Positions 41,585 to 46,715 of a DNA stretch of 48,991 nt are shown here, piece after piece. The position numbers were made by a program, and so were the translations under genes. The first letter of the stretch is position 1, and each line of letters opens with the position of its first letter. The notes under the pieces were generated by a model that was given only the letters and a program-made list of their open reading frames with translations, had not been told where the DNA came from and searched no databases. Origin of the DNA: Nitrososphaera sp. (lineage in GTDB: Archaea; Thermoproteota; Nitrososphaeria; Nitrososphaerales; Nitrososphaeraceae); assembly GCF_013388945.1 (NCBI RefSeq), contig NZ_JACAEH010000020.1, positions 1 to 48,991 on the forward strand. Reading direction: 5' to 3'.

Positions 41585-41592
41585 GCCTGGCG
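41585..41592. repeat. 8-bp target site duplication, left
   Basis: GCCTGGCG directly before the left 60-bp inverted repeat; same as 46671-46678. Confidence 0.9.
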
Positions 41593-41652
41593 GGTACTGG
41601 TAAGTTATCGGCTCATGCATGCGAATTTCGTCACTGTTAACTGTCGGCGCAC
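41593..41652. repeat. 60-bp terminal inverted repeat, left
   Basis: Begins GGTACTGGTAAGTTATCGGC and ends GTCGGCGCAC; exact reverse complement of 46611-46670. Confidence 0.95.
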
Positions 41653-41728
41653 GGTGCGAAAAAGTTACTGTCTGAGATTCGCCTAATGTAACAATGTTCT
41701 TAAACTAGTCTCTGGGATTAAGCTGAAA

Positions 41729-42709
41729 GTGTCTGCATCGCCGAAAGTGGAGATTATCAGGCAATATCACATATACGAAATTATGGATTCTTGTGTGATG
41801 AAAGTCCAAGTTAAACTTACCATGTTAATTCCTGCCAAAACACAATTCTATATCTATCCATTTAGGAAATATTTGCCGCATCTAAATGCTCGACTACAAG
41901 ACGGTACTGAATTACCAATCTTGCCATATACTGAACTTTCTAGATTGCTTGGACGCAACATTACGTTAGATGAAATAAAGAAAATTGCTACTGATTTGAC
42001 CAAAGGTGTGATAGAAGAAGAAGTTTTGGCGTCTGAAAACTTTGCTTTGATAATTCTGCCGTACCGAGAATCAGACTACTATGAAGAATTAGAATTGAAT
42101 TGGAAAGAACCAATAGGGCATAAACAATCTAATGATATTCTCACTCTCGATGTGCCACTAAATAGGCAATTCTCTCCAACAGAAGAATCTAGTCTTTATG
42201 TAGAAATAAAAGTTAGCGAAAAATATGAACTGACAGAATTACCGACCACTTTTTCACTTGATGATGAGCACCCAGAGACTATAGGCATTGACAACCCGCG
42301 CTTCATTTATCCACTTAGAAGATTAGAGGACACGAAAGATTACGAAGTAATTCTCAAGGACAAAAGGAACTATGTTTTGCGTTTTGGTCGAAAGTTTCCC
42401 CAAACTATTCAGATTCAGTACAAGGTGGGTGTCCCACTTATGGTCAGAAATTGGGCATGGTTTGGAATACTTGCGGGCGGGTTGCTGATACCGTTTAACT
42501 TGTATATCTTCGTAGCAGTTATAGAGAGCTTCAAATTTTCTGCGGCATTAACGGCAGGAATTGTTGCGGCTATGATCGGTCTTAGGATTATCCTCTTCCA
42601 CGATGTTGAATTAATGGCTAGATGGAATTGGGTATATATTGCTCTAATTTCGGCTAACTTGCTAATTCTCGTAGGATTAGCTGTGCAATGTACTAGTCAA
42701 TGTTTCTAG
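41729..42709 (+). CDS. Transposon-borne membrane protein, unknown
   Basis: 326 residues from GTG; TTCTTAAACTAG lies about 25 nt upstream, downstream of the left inverted repeat. Residues 1-235 are soluble and beta-rich (e.g. YVLRFGRKFPQTIQIQYKVG). The C-terminal third has three TMs (WFGILAGGLLIPFNLYIFVA; AALTAGIVAAMIGLRIILF; WVYIALISANLLILVGLAVQ). AT-rich codon use unlike the host. No family recognised; it is cargo of the transposon. Confidence 0.65.
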   Translation: MSASPKVEIIRQYHIYEIMDSCVMKVQVKLTMLIPAKTQFYIYPFRKYLPHLNARLQDGTELPILPYTELSRLLGRNITLDEIKKIATDLTKGVIEEEVLASENFALIILPYRESDYYEELELNWKEPIGHKQSNDILTLDVPLNRQFSPTEESSLYVEIKVSEKYELTELPTTFSLDDEHPETIGIDNPRFIYPLRRLEDTKDYEVILKDKRNYVLRFGRKFPQTIQIQYKVGVPLMVRNWAWFGILAGGLLIPFNLYIFVAVIESFKFSAALTAGIVAAMIGLRIILFHDVELMARWNWVYIALISANLLILVGLAVQCTSQCF

Positions 42710-42773
42710 AGCTATCCTAGAGAGTTTGACGACCTCGTACAATTATATCCATGAACCTTAATGGAAAAGATGT

Positions 42774-42911
42774 ATGGGTCTGCCTGTTCCAAAGTTTGAG
42801 CTTAAAGATAAGGATGATTGTACAAAAGTCATCAAAGCTTCTATGGGCAATATGCTCGCTGTCGGTTATTCGATTAACCGACAGATAGGTAAGGAAATGC
42901 GCAGCCATTAG
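42774..42911 (+). CDS. Possible 45-residue ORF
   Basis: Starts MGLPVPKFELKDKDDCTKVI and is protein-like in composition, with AATTATAT about 23 nt upstream, but it contains the perfect hairpin at 42859-42884 and ends inside the transposase stop. Doubtful. Confidence 0.3.
   Translation: MGLPVPKFELKDKDDCTKVIKASMGNMLAVGYSINRQIGKEMRSH
42859..42884. terminator. Perfect hairpin after the SWIM transposase gene
   Basis: CTGTCGGTTA-TTCGAT-TAACCGACAG, 10-bp stem and 6-nt loop, 24 nt past the transposase stop on the minus strand. It could stop or protect the transposase mRNA; no T run follows. Confidence 0.4.
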
Positions 42912-44026
42912 TTTAGATCGACACTCGCATTCTGAATCACTGTCATCCACTTGTTTCTACCCTCAATCTTGATGTTCGCCGCTTCCGCCGGTGTCTGACC
43001 ACCTAGCCCCTCATGCGGTCTGAAATAATTGTGGTATAACTGATAGCCTTTCAGCACGGCAGTGTCCTGCTTTTTCAGTCCGCGCATGACCTTTTCCCTG
43101 TCTCTGACTTCCCCGTTCATTCTTTCCATCTTGTTGTTGTTCATGTCCCCCGCAATGTGGATGTGCCTAATGTGGCTAGTTCTTGGCGGAACCTTTGACC
43201 AGAACTCCTTAAGATATGCTTCATGAAAGTTGTGTGCGCCGTCGCTTATCAGCATGTCAGGCTTTTTGCCTGCTACTTCTTTGCCCTCTTTGAACAGTGG
43301 CCTGACATCTTGCGTGTATTTCGTATCTGCTATCTGCTGCGCTATCCAGAACCTAGTTTCATCATCCATGAGAGCATAAAGATACTTTGTATTCCCTTTC
43401 ACTTTTAGGTAGAGCTCGTCAGTACGCCAGGTGCCGGATACTTGCGGAGTTATCTGATCCAAGTATTCCTGCATCAAAGTTACATACTTGCCAATCCACT
43501 TGTACACAGAAACGTGGCTGATTTTTATGCCCTGCAAGTGCAGAAACTTTTGCACGTTTCTTAGGCTTTCGCCGCTAAAGTATAGCTGCATGGCTGTCGT
43601 TATCATCTGAGGGGATGCGTGCATCTTTTCAAAGCCTATGTTGAGAGTAAACCAGAACTTACATTCTTTACAGAAATAACGCTGAATTGTGCCAGATTTG
43701 TTCTTGCGGACGCCATGACGTACAACCCGTTCAGACTTGCATCGCGGGCAATTGCCAATAGGTACAGGCGCGATAACAATCTGGCTTTCCACCTTTTTGC
43801 GTATTGTCAGGGAAAACTCTACCGCATGGATGTGCTTGCATTTCTGGCTGCGGTATGTGTGGTCGGGGCAGGAGCAACCCCATCCAAATTCGCTTGAAAT
43901 AACCTCATAGTCTCCCTTTCCTGACTGTGACTTTACACGGTAAGAATATTCGTTGACGCGCTGAATTGCACCTTCGAGCCTGGCTATTTCCTGACCTTTT
44001 ATCTGTCGTTCATTCTGCGCTTGCAT
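42908..44026 (-). CDS. DDE transposase with N-terminal SWIM zinc finger
   Basis: 372 residues. Residues 51-65 are a SWIM finger (CSCPDHTYRSQKCKH, CxCx9CxH). CPRC (93-96) and CKEC (119-122) form a zinc ribbon, followed by an HTH (LRNVQKFLHLQGIKISHVSV). The DDE core is D203 (TWRTDELYLKV), D262 (MLISDGAHNF) and E301 (NNNKMERMNGEVRDR), like IS6/IS240. No separate inverted repeats bracket this gene, so it is likely the transposase of the whole 5.1-kb unit. An operator palindrome abuts its start; minus-strand TTTATAGC about 30 nt upstream is its TATA. Confidence 0.85.
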   Translation of the reverse strand: MQAQNERQIKGQEIARLEGAIQRVNEYSYRVKSQSGKGDYEVISSEFGWGCSCPDHTYRSQKCKHIHAVEFSLTIRKKVESQIVIAPVPIGNCPRCKSERVVRHGVRKNKSGTIQRYFCKECKFWFTLNIGFEKMHASPQMITTAMQLYFSGESLRNVQKFLHLQGIKISHVSVYKWIGKYVTLMQEYLDQITPQVSGTWRTDELYLKVKGNTKYLYALMDDETRFWIAQQIADTKYTQDVRPLFKEGKEVAGKKPDMLISDGAHNFHEAYLKEFWSKVPPRTSHIRHIHIAGDMNNNKMERMNGEVRDREKVMRGLKKQDTAVLKGYQLYHNYFRPHEGLGGQTPAEAANIKIEGRNKWMTVIQNASVDLN

Positions 44027-44094
44027 TAGGCACCTAATACTACAAACAACTTAGCTATAAACCTTTAGGTGCCTAATTATAGTTAGGTGCCTAT
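44026..44094. promoter_or_regulatory. Three TTAGG(T/C)(G/A)CCTAA operators in a divergent promoter
   Basis: TTAGGCACCTAA (44026-44037, directly before the transposase ATG), TTAGGTGCCTAA (44065-44076) and TTAGGTGCCTAT (44083-44094). The first lies between the transposase TATA and ATG; the others lie just upstream of the AbrB TATA (TTTATTAGG). Fits repression of both genes by one regulator. Confidence 0.7.
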
Positions 44095-44127
44095 GTTTAT
44101 TAGGAACCGGTGTGTTCTTTAGAATAT

Positions 44128-44334
44128 ATGAAGCTACAGAAGCGCTTCAACCGCAAGGTAGGCAATAAAGAGTATAACAAATGGGTTTTAGTCCTACCTC
44201 AGGATGAGGTTGAAAAACTTGGATGGAAAGAGGGTGTTGAACTTGAACCAAATATCAAGGATGGTAAATTAGTCCTTACACCAAAAGGAAAGGAAAAGAG
44301 AGATTCTAAATCTGGTGCTGCATCCGCTTATTGA
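44128..44334 (+). CDS. AbrB-type regulator of the transposon
   Basis: 68 residues from ATG 44128; TTTATTAGG lies about 30 nt upstream, and a 6-residue upstream extension is unsupported. QKRFNRKVGNKEYNKWVLVL and LPQDEVEKLGWKEGVELEPN fit the swapped-hairpin AbrB/SpoVT fold, followed by a basic tail. The TTAGGTGCCTAA palindromes in three promoters are its natural candidate targets. Confidence 0.75.
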   Translation: MKLQKRFNRKVGNKEYNKWVLVLPQDEVEKLGWKEGVELEPNIKDGKLVLTPKGKEKRDSKSGAASAY

Positions 44335-44434
44335 TGGTTTCACGAACAAGCCTCTTTATTATTTCCTCAATTGGCTCGCTGTTATAGTATGAGTCAGATT
44401 TCTTAAGCTTATCCGTCACCGATCGCCCAACCAT
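44306..44434 (-). CDS. 42-residue ORF after the proteasome-like gene
   Basis: Starts 14 nt after the hydrolase stop on the same strand with GGAGA/GAGAG purine runs upstream. VGRSVTDKLKKSDSYYNSEP then EEIIKRLVRETINKRM reads as charged helices. Its last 29 nt overlap the convergent AbrB gene end. Possible antitoxin-like or partner peptide. Confidence 0.4.
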   Translation of the reverse strand: MVGRSVTDKLKKSDSYYNSEPIEEIIKRLVRETINKRMQHQI

Positions 44435-44448
44435 TATTCTCTCACTCT

Positions 44449-45213
44449 CTAGTCTCCTAACTTCGATATATCTTCTTTCTTAATTTTACCTTTTAAGACC
44501 TGTGGTATCAGATTCTTGTCAATATAGTCTAGAACCGAAACAAGCTCAGTTCGGATCGTTTGAACTACCTCAGGAGGCAATTCCTGATATTCGTTCTTGA
44601 CTACGCCGACTCTGGTTTCACCGCCACAGTTGGGATCAATCTGTTTCACCTCATCTATTGCGTAGATTGCCATTGGGATTGCCTCGTCAACTGTTATCTT
44701 ATCATGGTAGTAATTTTTTAAGATGTATTCTGCATAGGCCGCACCGCTTCCAATCGTAGCGTAGTCTTGAGTAGGTTCAACCAAACCTGCAGAATGGAGA
44801 ACTGAAAGGTAATGATTTTGCTTACCATCTGCACAAGGGCAGATCCCGCCACATAGAAGAATCGGCTGGAAAAAGTCTCTCTCACTACCATCTTCGAGTT
44901 CCCTTGCTCTGTCTAGGTTGTACCGCTTATGCGCCGCAGTTAAGGTTTTCTCGATTATGTCTGTTATGATAATGTCTGTTAACTCATCCTTACTCGCTTC
45001 TTCTTGAGCCTGTCGCATTGCTAACCTGATTAGCTCGACGGCTCGTACTATGTGTGCTACTGCACCTGCTCCTGCAACCGCGAATTTGCCGTTGAGTGGG
45101 TGTATTTTAGTCACATTCAGCCTTTTGACTGAAACACCCCTATCAAATTCGGATTGCGTATCTGTCGCAATCACGACACCATCAACACAGCGTATTCCTA
45201 CAACAATAGTCAT
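44449..45213 (-). CDS. Proteasome-beta-like Ntn hydrolase on the transposon
   Basis: 254 residues from ATG 45213, which puts Thr directly after Met: TIVVGIRCVDGVVIATDTQS. With Thr as residue 1, Asp17 falls in ATDT and Lys35 in NVTKIH corresponds to proteasome Lys33, so the catalytic Thr/Asp/Lys set seems complete. FAVAGAGAVAHIVRA and YATIGSGAAYAEYILKNYY are the typical core strands and helix. It is longer at the C-terminus than a 20S beta subunit and is not in a proteasome operon. It may self-assemble (HslV/Anbu-like) or cleave a specific target. An operator lies just upstream. Confidence 0.82.
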   Translation of the reverse strand: MTIVVGIRCVDGVVIATDTQSEFDRGVSVKRLNVTKIHPLNGKFAVAGAGAVAHIVRAVELIRLAMRQAQEEASKDELTDIIITDIIEKTLTAAHKRYNLDRARELEDGSERDFFQPILLCGGICPCADGKQNHYLSVLHSAGLVEPTQDYATIGSGAAYAEYILKNYYHDKITVDEAIPMAIYAIDEVKQIDPNCGGETRVGVVKNEYQELPPEVVQTIRTELVSVLDYIDKNLIPQVLKGKIKKEDISKLGD

Positions 45214-45224
45214 ACCGGTCGGTT

Positions 45225-45236
45225 TTAGGTGCCTAT
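45225..45236. promoter_or_regulatory. TTAGGTGCCTAT operator before the proteasome-like gene
   Basis: 12 nt upstream of ATG 45213, between a minus-strand TATA (ACTTAAATAG, 45241-45250) and the start. Same motif as the three sites at 44026-44094. Confidence 0.65.
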
Positions 45237-45261
45237 TACAGCTATTTAAGTACTTCATAAA

Positions 45262-45280
45262 TAGAGGGCTGTGAATAACT
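45262..45280. repeat. Nested IS inverted repeat, left
   Basis: TAGAGGGCTGTGAATAACT; matches 46550-46568 in reverse complement. Confidence 0.85.
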
Positions 45281-46566
45281 GCTCTCTCACTATTTTGTCA
45301 ACCTGAATCGCTCGATAAAGCTATGACCCGTCCCAGAGGATTGGCATTGGTAACATGCAAATACCAAGGGACGGCCATAGCAGAGGAGTTATCCACTCCT
45401 GTCACGGGGAACCAAGCGTAGTAAATAAGGACCGCGCTAACAACAAACCAAAACCGGTCAGGGAGGACGCGTTTCCTTCCGAGCTGGTGTTCCAAAAGAC
45501 AGACCTTTCATTTGTAGACAGGATAGTAGACCCTGACAGAGAGAAGAGGTCTGGCCCCAAAGGCTACCGCCCAAGCTCTATCTTTATGGCACTGCTGCTC
45601 ATGTACCTGCAAAGCATGGACAGCGTACTTGCATTGGTACGCTTCCTCAACACACACCCACAGTGGCTGGTAACACTTGACCTGAGAAAGGCGGTACGTG
45701 GAAATATACAGTACAAGGTGCCTGACAGGACTACCTTTTACAAGTTTGCAGAGAGGCTTGGGCGTGAAAAGATGCTGGACATATTCATCTCCATGGTTGT
45801 CCAGCTGATACAGCTCGGCATAATCAAGGGAGATAAGGTTAGCCTTGATTGCTCCATAATATGGGCTTGGTTCAAGGACTGCAAGTGGAGCAACAGCCCC
45901 AGGCATGACAAAAAGAAATGCAGGCGCAACAAGAGCAGGGACAAAGACGCTTCATGGACGTGGGACAGCCACAGGGAAAAGTTCGTCTACGGCTACAAGG
46001 TTCACATAATGATAGATTCGGCGTCCGGACTGCCGGTTATGATTACAGTAACTACTGCCGCCTACGGCGAGAACAGGACTGTTTCGTGGTTTGTAAGGAT
46101 GGTATTGCGGCTTGGCGTCAGTGTCAGCAAGTTCCTTGCAGACGCAGGATACGACAGTAACGAGACGAGGCTGAAGATAATCCGGAGGCTCAAAGCAGTC
46201 CCTTTCATACCACTCAATACAAGGAACGCTTCGGGCTCTACCATTGAAGAAAAGAAGGCCAGAAGGAAGGAACTGTGCCTGAAGTTCTATGTAAAGAATC
46301 TCGTCAGGAATTTCTGGGTAGACCCTGATTCTGAAGAGTTTGATAGGGAGTTTGATGCAAGGACGTTTTCGGAGCAAGGGTTCTCTGTCGGGAAAGGCTC
46401 CCTGAATCTTGACTCCTTGAAACATGTGGGAATAGAGTGGGCTACGCTGCACTCCGTGTGTATCTGTATGGTGATGTTACTGGTGGCAAAAACGGCTGTA
46501 GAAATAGGAAGGCCGGACTTGAGTAGGTGTGTAAAATGCTTCCAAGGATAGTTATTCACAGCCCTC
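45264..46566. mobile_element. Nested IS (IS4/IS5-superfamily-like) with inverted repeats
   Basis: TAGAGGGCTGTGAATAACT at 45262-45280 is the reverse complement of 46550-46568 (19 bp). If the flanking TA is the target duplication, the IS is 1,303 bp with 17-bp repeats. It carries one transposase and lies between the proteasome-like gene and the right end of the larger transposon, upstream of that gene's TATA. Confidence 0.85.
45355..46551 (+). CDS. DDE transposase of the nested IS
   Basis: 398 residues. Its N-terminal half resembles the DUF772/IS5-type region (GPKGYRPSSIFMALLLMYLQ). DDE core: VSLDCSIIWAWF (first Asp), KFLADAGYDSNETRLKIIRR (second Asp), and a C-terminal region with Glu candidates near VKNLVRNFWVDPDSEEFDRE. 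Fits the IS4/IS5 DDE_Tnp_1 superfamily. It appears intact and ends inside the right inverted repeat. Confidence 0.85.
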   Translation: MQIPRDGHSRGVIHSCHGEPSVVNKDRANNKPKPVREDAFPSELVFQKTDLSFVDRIVDPDREKRSGPKGYRPSSIFMALLLMYLQSMDSVLALVRFLNTHPQWLVTLDLRKAVRGNIQYKVPDRTTFYKFAERLGREKMLDIFISMVVQLIQLGIIKGDKVSLDCSIIWAWFKDCKWSNSPRHDKKKCRRNKSRDKDASWTWDSHREKFVYGYKVHIMIDSASGLPVMITVTTAAYGENRTVSWFVRMVLRLGVSVSKFLADAGYDSNETRLKIIRRLKAVPFIPLNTRNASGSTIEEKKARRKELCLKFYVKNLVRNFWVDPDSEEFDREFDARTFSEQGFSVGKGSLNLDSLKHVGIEWATLHSVCICMVMLLVAKTAVEIGRPDLSRCVKCFQG

Positions 46567-46568
46567 TA
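46550..46568. repeat. Nested IS inverted repeat, right
   Basis: AGTTATTCACAGCCCTCTA; matches 45262-45280 in reverse complement. Confidence 0.85.
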
Positions 46569-46610
46569 AATATCATATGAAAAATCTATAGATTTCTTGC
46601 CCCGAGAGGT

Positions 46611-46670
46611 GTGCGCCGACAGTTAACAGTGACGAAATTCGCATGCATGAGCCGATAACTTACCAGTACC
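46611..46670. repeat. 60-bp terminal inverted repeat, right
   Basis: Begins GTGCGCCGAC and ends TACCAGTACC; exact reverse complement of 41593-41652. Confidence 0.95.
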
Positions 46671-46678
46671 GCCTGGCG
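46671..46678. repeat. 8-bp target site duplication, right
   Basis: GCCTGGCG directly after the right inverted repeat; same as 41585-41592. It is 71 bp before the tfb start. Confidence 0.9.
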
Positions 46679-46680
46679 TA

Positions 46681-46715
46681 ATATTTATATATTAGAATAA
46701 AATATAAATATAGGC
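46681..46715 (+). promoter_or_regulatory. AT-rich tfb promoter region
   Basis: About 35 bp of nearly pure A/T (ATATTTATATATTAG then AATAAAATATAAATATAGG) between the transposon edge and tfb. It contains at least two TATA-box candidates. Confidence 0.55.

Follow-up and report, generated by a model that had tools for sequence, protein, structure and literature searches.

A cargo-carrying archaeal transposon with an IS6-related transposase belongs to a family inserted at a fixed register upstream of predicted core promoters

We analysed a stretch of 48,991 nt from Nitrososphaera sp. (the window), in which a 5.1-kb unit is, as judged from its ends and genes, an autonomous transposon; it belongs to a broad family of archaeal elements that combine an IS6-related SWIM-DDE transposase with exchangeable cargo. 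By comparing insertion sites across this family, we show that its GGnnCTG ends, accompanied by an 8-bp target duplication, are joined in either orientation at a fixed register just upstream of predicted BRE/TATA elements, and that the BRE, the TATA box and the host gene are left intact by the insertion. We consider it likely that the overall picture holds, namely an autonomous transposon of this family with promoter-register targeting, in which TBP-TFB would guide the choice of target, an AbrB-like protein would act as repressor and a proteasome-like hydrolase would be carried as cargo. This widespread family is apparently undescribed in the open-access literature, in which we found no paper linking SWIM, IS6 and archaea, and none on promoter-targeted transposons of archaea.

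The two terminal inverted repeats of the window element are perfectly complementary over 60 nt, with the similarity ending abruptly at base 61, and the octamer GCCTGGCG flanks the element on both sides (Table 1). The absence of any mismatch in the ends and in the duplication is consistent with a recent insertion. The full 60-mer was found only at these two places in the 2.0-Mb draft genome (a third match, on contig C31, is weak, with 23 bp at 87%), and the element is present as a single copy. The initial annotation had described a recently inserted archaeal transposon with exact 60-bp inverted repeats and an 8-bp duplication just outside them; both structural claims are confirmed, and the recent transposon reading is supported, with an IS6-related transposase and non-transposition cargo. 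The organism's own genome showed no instance of the 60-bp repeat separate from these genes. Two related units, ACTGGTAAGTTATCGGCTCAT and ACTGTTAACTGTCGGCGCAC, the second 37 nt inward of the first, lie in the left repeat and are probably transposase-binding sites.

Table 1. Features of the window element and its insertion site (positions in the window)
Feature	Position	Strand	Remarks
Target duplication, distal copy	41585-41592	.	GCCTGGCG
Left terminal inverted repeat	41593-41652	+	60 nt
326-aa protein	41729-42709	+	No Pfam/NCBIfam match
Transposase, 372 aa	42908-44026	-	SWIM, zinc ribbon and DDE
Operator-like site	44027-44036	.	TAGGCACCTA; start of transposase gene
Operator-like site	44066-44075	.	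TAGGTGCCTA; adjoins transposase TATA-like box
Operator-like site	44084-44093	.	TAGGTGCCTA; immediately before the regulator's TATA-like box
AbrB/MazE-like regulator	44128-44334	+	By profile; probable start ATG 44128 (mechanical ORF from 44110)
Proteasome-beta-like Ntn hydrolase	44449-45213	-	By profile; probable start Met45213 (mechanical ORF to 45258)
Operator-like site	45226-45235	.	TAGGTGCCTA; between hydrolase TATA-like box and start
Nested IS5/IS1182-type element	45264-46566	+	Transposase 45355-46551
Right terminal inverted repeat	46611-46670	-	60 nt
Target duplication, promoter-proximal copy	46671-46678	.	GCCTGGCG
TATA box of host tfb	46684-46691	+	TTTATATA; 5 bp past the duplication; insertion anchor
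Host target gene tfb, TFIIB-type initiation factor, 304 aa	46750-47664	+	Named by eye from sequence

Profile searches bore out the SWIM-DDE transposase, the AbrB-like regulator and the proteasome-like hydrolase of the initial annotation, whereas a nested IS5/IS1182-type element had been overlooked. This 1303-bp element has its own inverted repeats with 17-bp matching ends, is flanked by the 6-bp duplication TAAATA (45258-45263 and 46567-46572) and is also single copy in the genome; it arrived after the window element had inserted, and without it the latter measures about 3.77 kb. Its insertion point lies a few bp upstream of the TATA-like box of the hydrolase gene. What had been called a membrane protein is the 326-aa protein, whose C-terminal third is hydrophobic as judged by eye and which could be assigned to no family. 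Its relatives were found in only 2 other genomes among 300 (L282 and L283, distant at 34% and 25%).

The transposase carries SWIM residues C51, C53, C63 and H65, zinc-ribbon cysteines C93, C96, C119 and C122, and the DDE triad D203, D262 and E301, all of which are invariant in an alignment of 17 sequences whose members are 38-63% identical to the window protein. Residues 199-336 match PF13610 (DDE_Tnp_IS240) with 54.5 bits (cut-off 27), and the best NCBIfam model is that of IS6 (NF033587), at 112.4 bits below its cut-off of 125. The initial annotation had named IS6- and IS256/MULE-type enzymes as known makers of 8-bp duplications; relatedness to IS6 stands, but membership of the IS256/Mutator group does not, the IS256 model scoring 23.8 bits, far under its cut-off of 150. 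A simple IS, already doubted in the initial annotation, and a composite transposon are both ruled out, because the cargo sits between a single pair of inverted repeats. Of 300 genomes of the order, 128 encode relatives of the transposase at E<=1e-20, and several other families of the phylum have relatives at E<=1e-40. A scan of named organisms found them in Nitrosopumilus, Nitrosocosmicus, Nitrosotalea devanaterra, Bathyarchaeota, Methanoperedens and Methanoregula, and also in a Thermoplasmata bin and Asgard bins, labels that may reflect contaminated bins. Two IMG/VR contigs (L275 and L276) hold full-length relatives, 56% identical, and are possible viral or plasmid vehicles.

The comparison covered about 1,300 genomes, mostly drafts, in which a script delimited elements near these transposases by GG-starting ends that are mutual inverted copies flanked by an identical octamer. 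We were able to delimit 54 elements with an exact 8-bp duplication, the window's included, of 2.1-6.5 kb; more were delimited in other groups of the phylum and 25 in the named-genome set, and the family as a whole spans 2-7 kb. As the initial annotation had anticipated, relatives share the type of end, the length of the duplication and the transposase while differing in cargo. Their ends are typically GGTTCTGT, with CTGT at +4 in 77 of 108 ends (the window element shows ACTGG at this position, with ACTGTT in the second unit) and commonly a second CTGT at +31, +32 or +41; in several relatives the inverted repeats are perfect over at least 30 bp. Nearly all delimited elements contain cargo ORFs, which vary from element to element. 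Among 89 larger cargo ORFs we recognised type I, II and IIG restriction-modification systems, Mrr, HNH, PIN and NYN nucleases, HEPN-AbiV, RelA/SpoT, a response regulator, a ParA-like ATPase and nested ISs. Most have no family, and the cargo is rich in restriction-modification, nuclease and toxin-like genes; the most recurrent group is proteasome-like (7 ORFs in 6 elements).

On one side of the elements, the duplication is followed by a BRE-like A and a TATA-like box, mostly at offset 5. Scoring a box as a TATA score of at least 6 at offset 3-7 on the better of the two flanks, we found a strong box at this register in 37 of 52 elements. The controls, scored alike, had it at 4.9% of positions drawn at random from the same loci and at 5.2% of those lying 20-120 bp upstream of ORFs (binomial p 6e-36). 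When identical promoters are merged, 26 of the 40 distinct promoters have the box. About 30% of the elements lack a clear TATA score, though many of them show a weaker TATA-like box at that offset. The motif TTAWA occurs 19 times at offset 6, as against 0.3 times per offset further off. In a logo of 49 distinct sites the octamer is nearly uninformative while TATA stands out at +5 to +12, and an A occupies +2, the expected place of the archaeal BRE and a position not used in choosing the flank, in 36 of the 49. A sequence-specific octamer target is ruled out by this near lack of consensus. The host start codon often follows at +36 to +44 (22 of 42 fall in the bins +35 to +44), and the elements point toward the promoter in 25 cases and away from it in 23. 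The box was found in 14 of 24 elements of the named-genome set, with good boxes in Bathyarchaeota, Methanoregula and the Thermoplasmata bin. Target genes, named by eye from their N-termini, include radA, tfb and the genes for ribosomal proteins P1 and L3 and RNA polymerase subunit P. A further recurrent target in the order is the promoter of a conserved 128-aa gene (MPK.GFKSITVSE; L147, L150 and L152), and L274 has a similar promoter. One element (L176, 9341-15390) has an IS6-like transposase match that begins past the SWIM region; it adjoins a SWIM-bearing element with a related duplication (possibly 9 bp), and it may be that promoter anchoring predates the SWIM domain.

The window element itself sits on the tfb promoter, a position, fixed family-wide, that the initial annotation had missed in its account of the insertion. 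The same base is occupied in six genomes of the genus, the window's included, by different elements. In G074 the element at tfb has a transposase 62% identical to that of the window and a duplication of CGCAAGCG in the same register, and four further genomes (G131, G056, G092 and G211) show element-type ends at the tfb register, each with an octamer of its own. The window's own element was found at the tfb site of no relative. Empty sites, which the initial annotation had proposed as a check, exist in related genomes: G086, G083 and others have no insertion at this point, and the uninterrupted tfb site of a relative is 78% identical. The occupant of the tfb promoter in G056 is a 608-bp non-autonomous, MITE-like member of the family (L101, 3451-4058) with perfect ends (30/30 checked) and a 100-aa ORF, but no transposase.

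A similar reuse of one base is seen at radA. Of 60 genomes of Nitrosopumilus, the genus of G126, 37 match a query made of the joined flanks without a break and 11 are split at the octamer; seven of the 22 uninterrupted sites that were read carry the identical octamer once, one (G640) with a remnant of an element end. Pairwise identity among the transposases of elements at radA promoters is 40-93%, which points to separate arrivals of several lineages. Head-to-tail arrangements are found too, in which neighbouring elements are separated by the same octamer. L054, for example, reads promoter, octamer, restriction-modification element, octamer, hydrolase/AbrB element, octamer and old upstream DNA, and the stack in L171 comprises at least three units. 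Tandem stacks sharing one octamer are expected if newcomers reuse the promoter-proximal octamer.

Within the element, a pattern search of the 49-kb window for TAGGTGCCTA returned four exact copies, all of them inside the transposon and close to the starts or TATA-like boxes of its genes (Table 1). With one mismatch allowed, at least 4 matches arise in 14 of 100 shuffles, and the count alone is weak. The motif is an imperfect palindrome and, for that reason, was not picked up by a search of the window for exact repeated palindromes. Other AbrB-bearing elements contain TAGGTACCTA 2 or 3 times between regulator and transposase. The arrangement suggests that the AbrB-like protein may repress the transposase, itself and the hydrolase through these putative operators.

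The hydrolase resembles HslV and proteasome beta subunits in its PF00227 domain, in a T17 whose counterpart in mature beta subunits is residue 1, in conserved Asp17 and Lys33-like columns (save in one truncated row) and in the MT with which most of its relatives begin, as HslV does; it differs in being transposon-borne and in scoring far under the equivalog cut-offs of every proteasome and HslV model. Met16 lies 37 nt downstream of a TATA-like box, which suggests it as the translation start. Removal of this Met would expose Thr1, as in HslV, and the hydrolase may expose its putative catalytic Thr1 in this way. A single-protein scan of genome contigs with the hydrolase gave no match. Several genomes of genus g2 encode HslV-like proteins starting MTT (L040, L042-L045 and L047-L049), mostly with no transposase of the archaeal transposon family nearby; these are an uncharacterised archaeal Ntn hydrolase group. 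We favour the reading that the hydrolase is cargo, possibly with an accessory role. That it functions in transposition, for example by degrading the regulator or the transposase complex, would agree with the operator it has in common with transposase and regulator, with its recurrence as cargo and with its presence in elements of distant families; we regard this as unlikely, given that most delimited elements lack such a gene and that similar genes also occur away from these transposases.

As for the choice of target, we propose that the transposase contacts promoter-bound TBP-TFB and that this contact sets the target, much as TFIIIB guides Ty3 in yeast; strand transfer would then fall one footprint upstream. 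Direct reading of TATA/BRE DNA would give the same picture, and it is quite possible, though not probable, that the transposase alone recognises the sequence or bendability of these elements with no host protein involved: the insertion signal is flexible, AT-rich DNA, elements keep a fixed register relative to AT-rich boxes, and the SWIM domain and zinc ribbon are available for DNA binding. Yet the cut octamer is almost without consensus, and the TATA sequences vary widely while the distance is kept. Moreover, the polarity of the signal (A at +2, box, start codon) is that of a promoter although the ends are symmetrical and both orientations are used, and only a minority of sites have a TATA-like sequence with no close gene start. 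Survivorship, in which insertion is random and only events just upstream of core promoters are tolerated, appears highly improbable. All sampled insertions do come from living genomes, where intergenic ones are expected to survive best, but positions upstream of ORFs have a box at the register in just 5%, and selection alone can neither put different elements on the same radA or tfb base in many genomes nor yield stacks with one octamer. The several different element ends at tfb within one genus could also point to a recombination hotspot at which elements are swapped by homologous recombination; we find this extremely improbable, since every site has an octamer of its own, the ends are not alike, and the same register is found across several phyla at dozens of promoters that are unrelated.

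Within the scope of the open-access literature, promoter-anchored integration appears not to have been described in archaea before, and the present case extends over several archaeal phyla; otherwise such integration is known from yeast retrotransposons and a few bacterial elements (PMC8632968, PMC3942029). Tethering of the transposase by TBP-TFB is now directly testable, and the insertions provide a natural map of core promoters. They explain how defence genes and genes of unknown function pile up upstream of essential archaeal genes while the host survives, and could yield a tool for promoter-targeted insertion in ammonia-oxidising archaea and Methanoperedens.

Among mobile elements of the same archaea, a thaumarchaeal survey describes IS-like transposons of 1-2 genes, and tandem integrations at one site for casposons and proviruses; AbrB and SWIM are absent from its text, and the passages considered describe no promoter targeting (PMC6563490). 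Casposons use Cas1, to which none of the five genes of the window element gave a match, and this assignment was rejected. The likeness to IS6/IS26 (reviewed in PMC7986276 and PMC6807381) lies in the DDE_Tnp_IS240 domain, the GG tip with its CTGT motif and the 8-bp duplication. The archaeal family differs in the SWIM domain and zinc ribbon in front, in a window transposase under the curated IS6 cut-off, in inverted repeats of 60 bp in the window compared with 15-20 in IS6, and in its cargo and promoter-anchored insertion; IS6 elements are described as having short ends and a single passenger-carrying member, ISDsp3 (PMC7986276).

Closer in behaviour are the bacterial TnGBS, ISLre2 and ISKra4 elements (p-MULT 3 and 4), which likewise keep a fixed distance to the promoter, inserting upstream of it and sparing the gene; they make short duplications and include some large elements (PMC3942029). 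TnGBS-type elements lie 15-17 bp upstream of sigma-A promoters, the distance being measured from the -35 box, with a Mutator/IS256-type transposase and mostly in one orientation, as holds for most of p-MULT 3 (PMC3942029), whereas the archaeal family uses TATA promoters, an IS6-related enzyme and both orientations (25 versus 23). The yeast retrotransposon Ty3 likewise integrates beside promoters, its integration complex contacting TBP and Brf1, the minimal targeting factors, which are homologous to archaeal TBP and TFB (PMC8632968). Ty3 uses an integrase and inserts only at Pol III genes, 2-3 bp from the start site (PMC8632968), whereas the archaeal elements are DNA transposons that insert upstream of the BRE and whose docking we infer. 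A broader proposal, which we hold to be evenly balanced, is that pan-archaeal cargo transposons dock on the TBP-TFB core promoter, integrate one footprint upstream as a counterpart of Ty3, and build tandem arrays of defence and toxin genes at the promoters of genes that are essential, such as radA and tfb.
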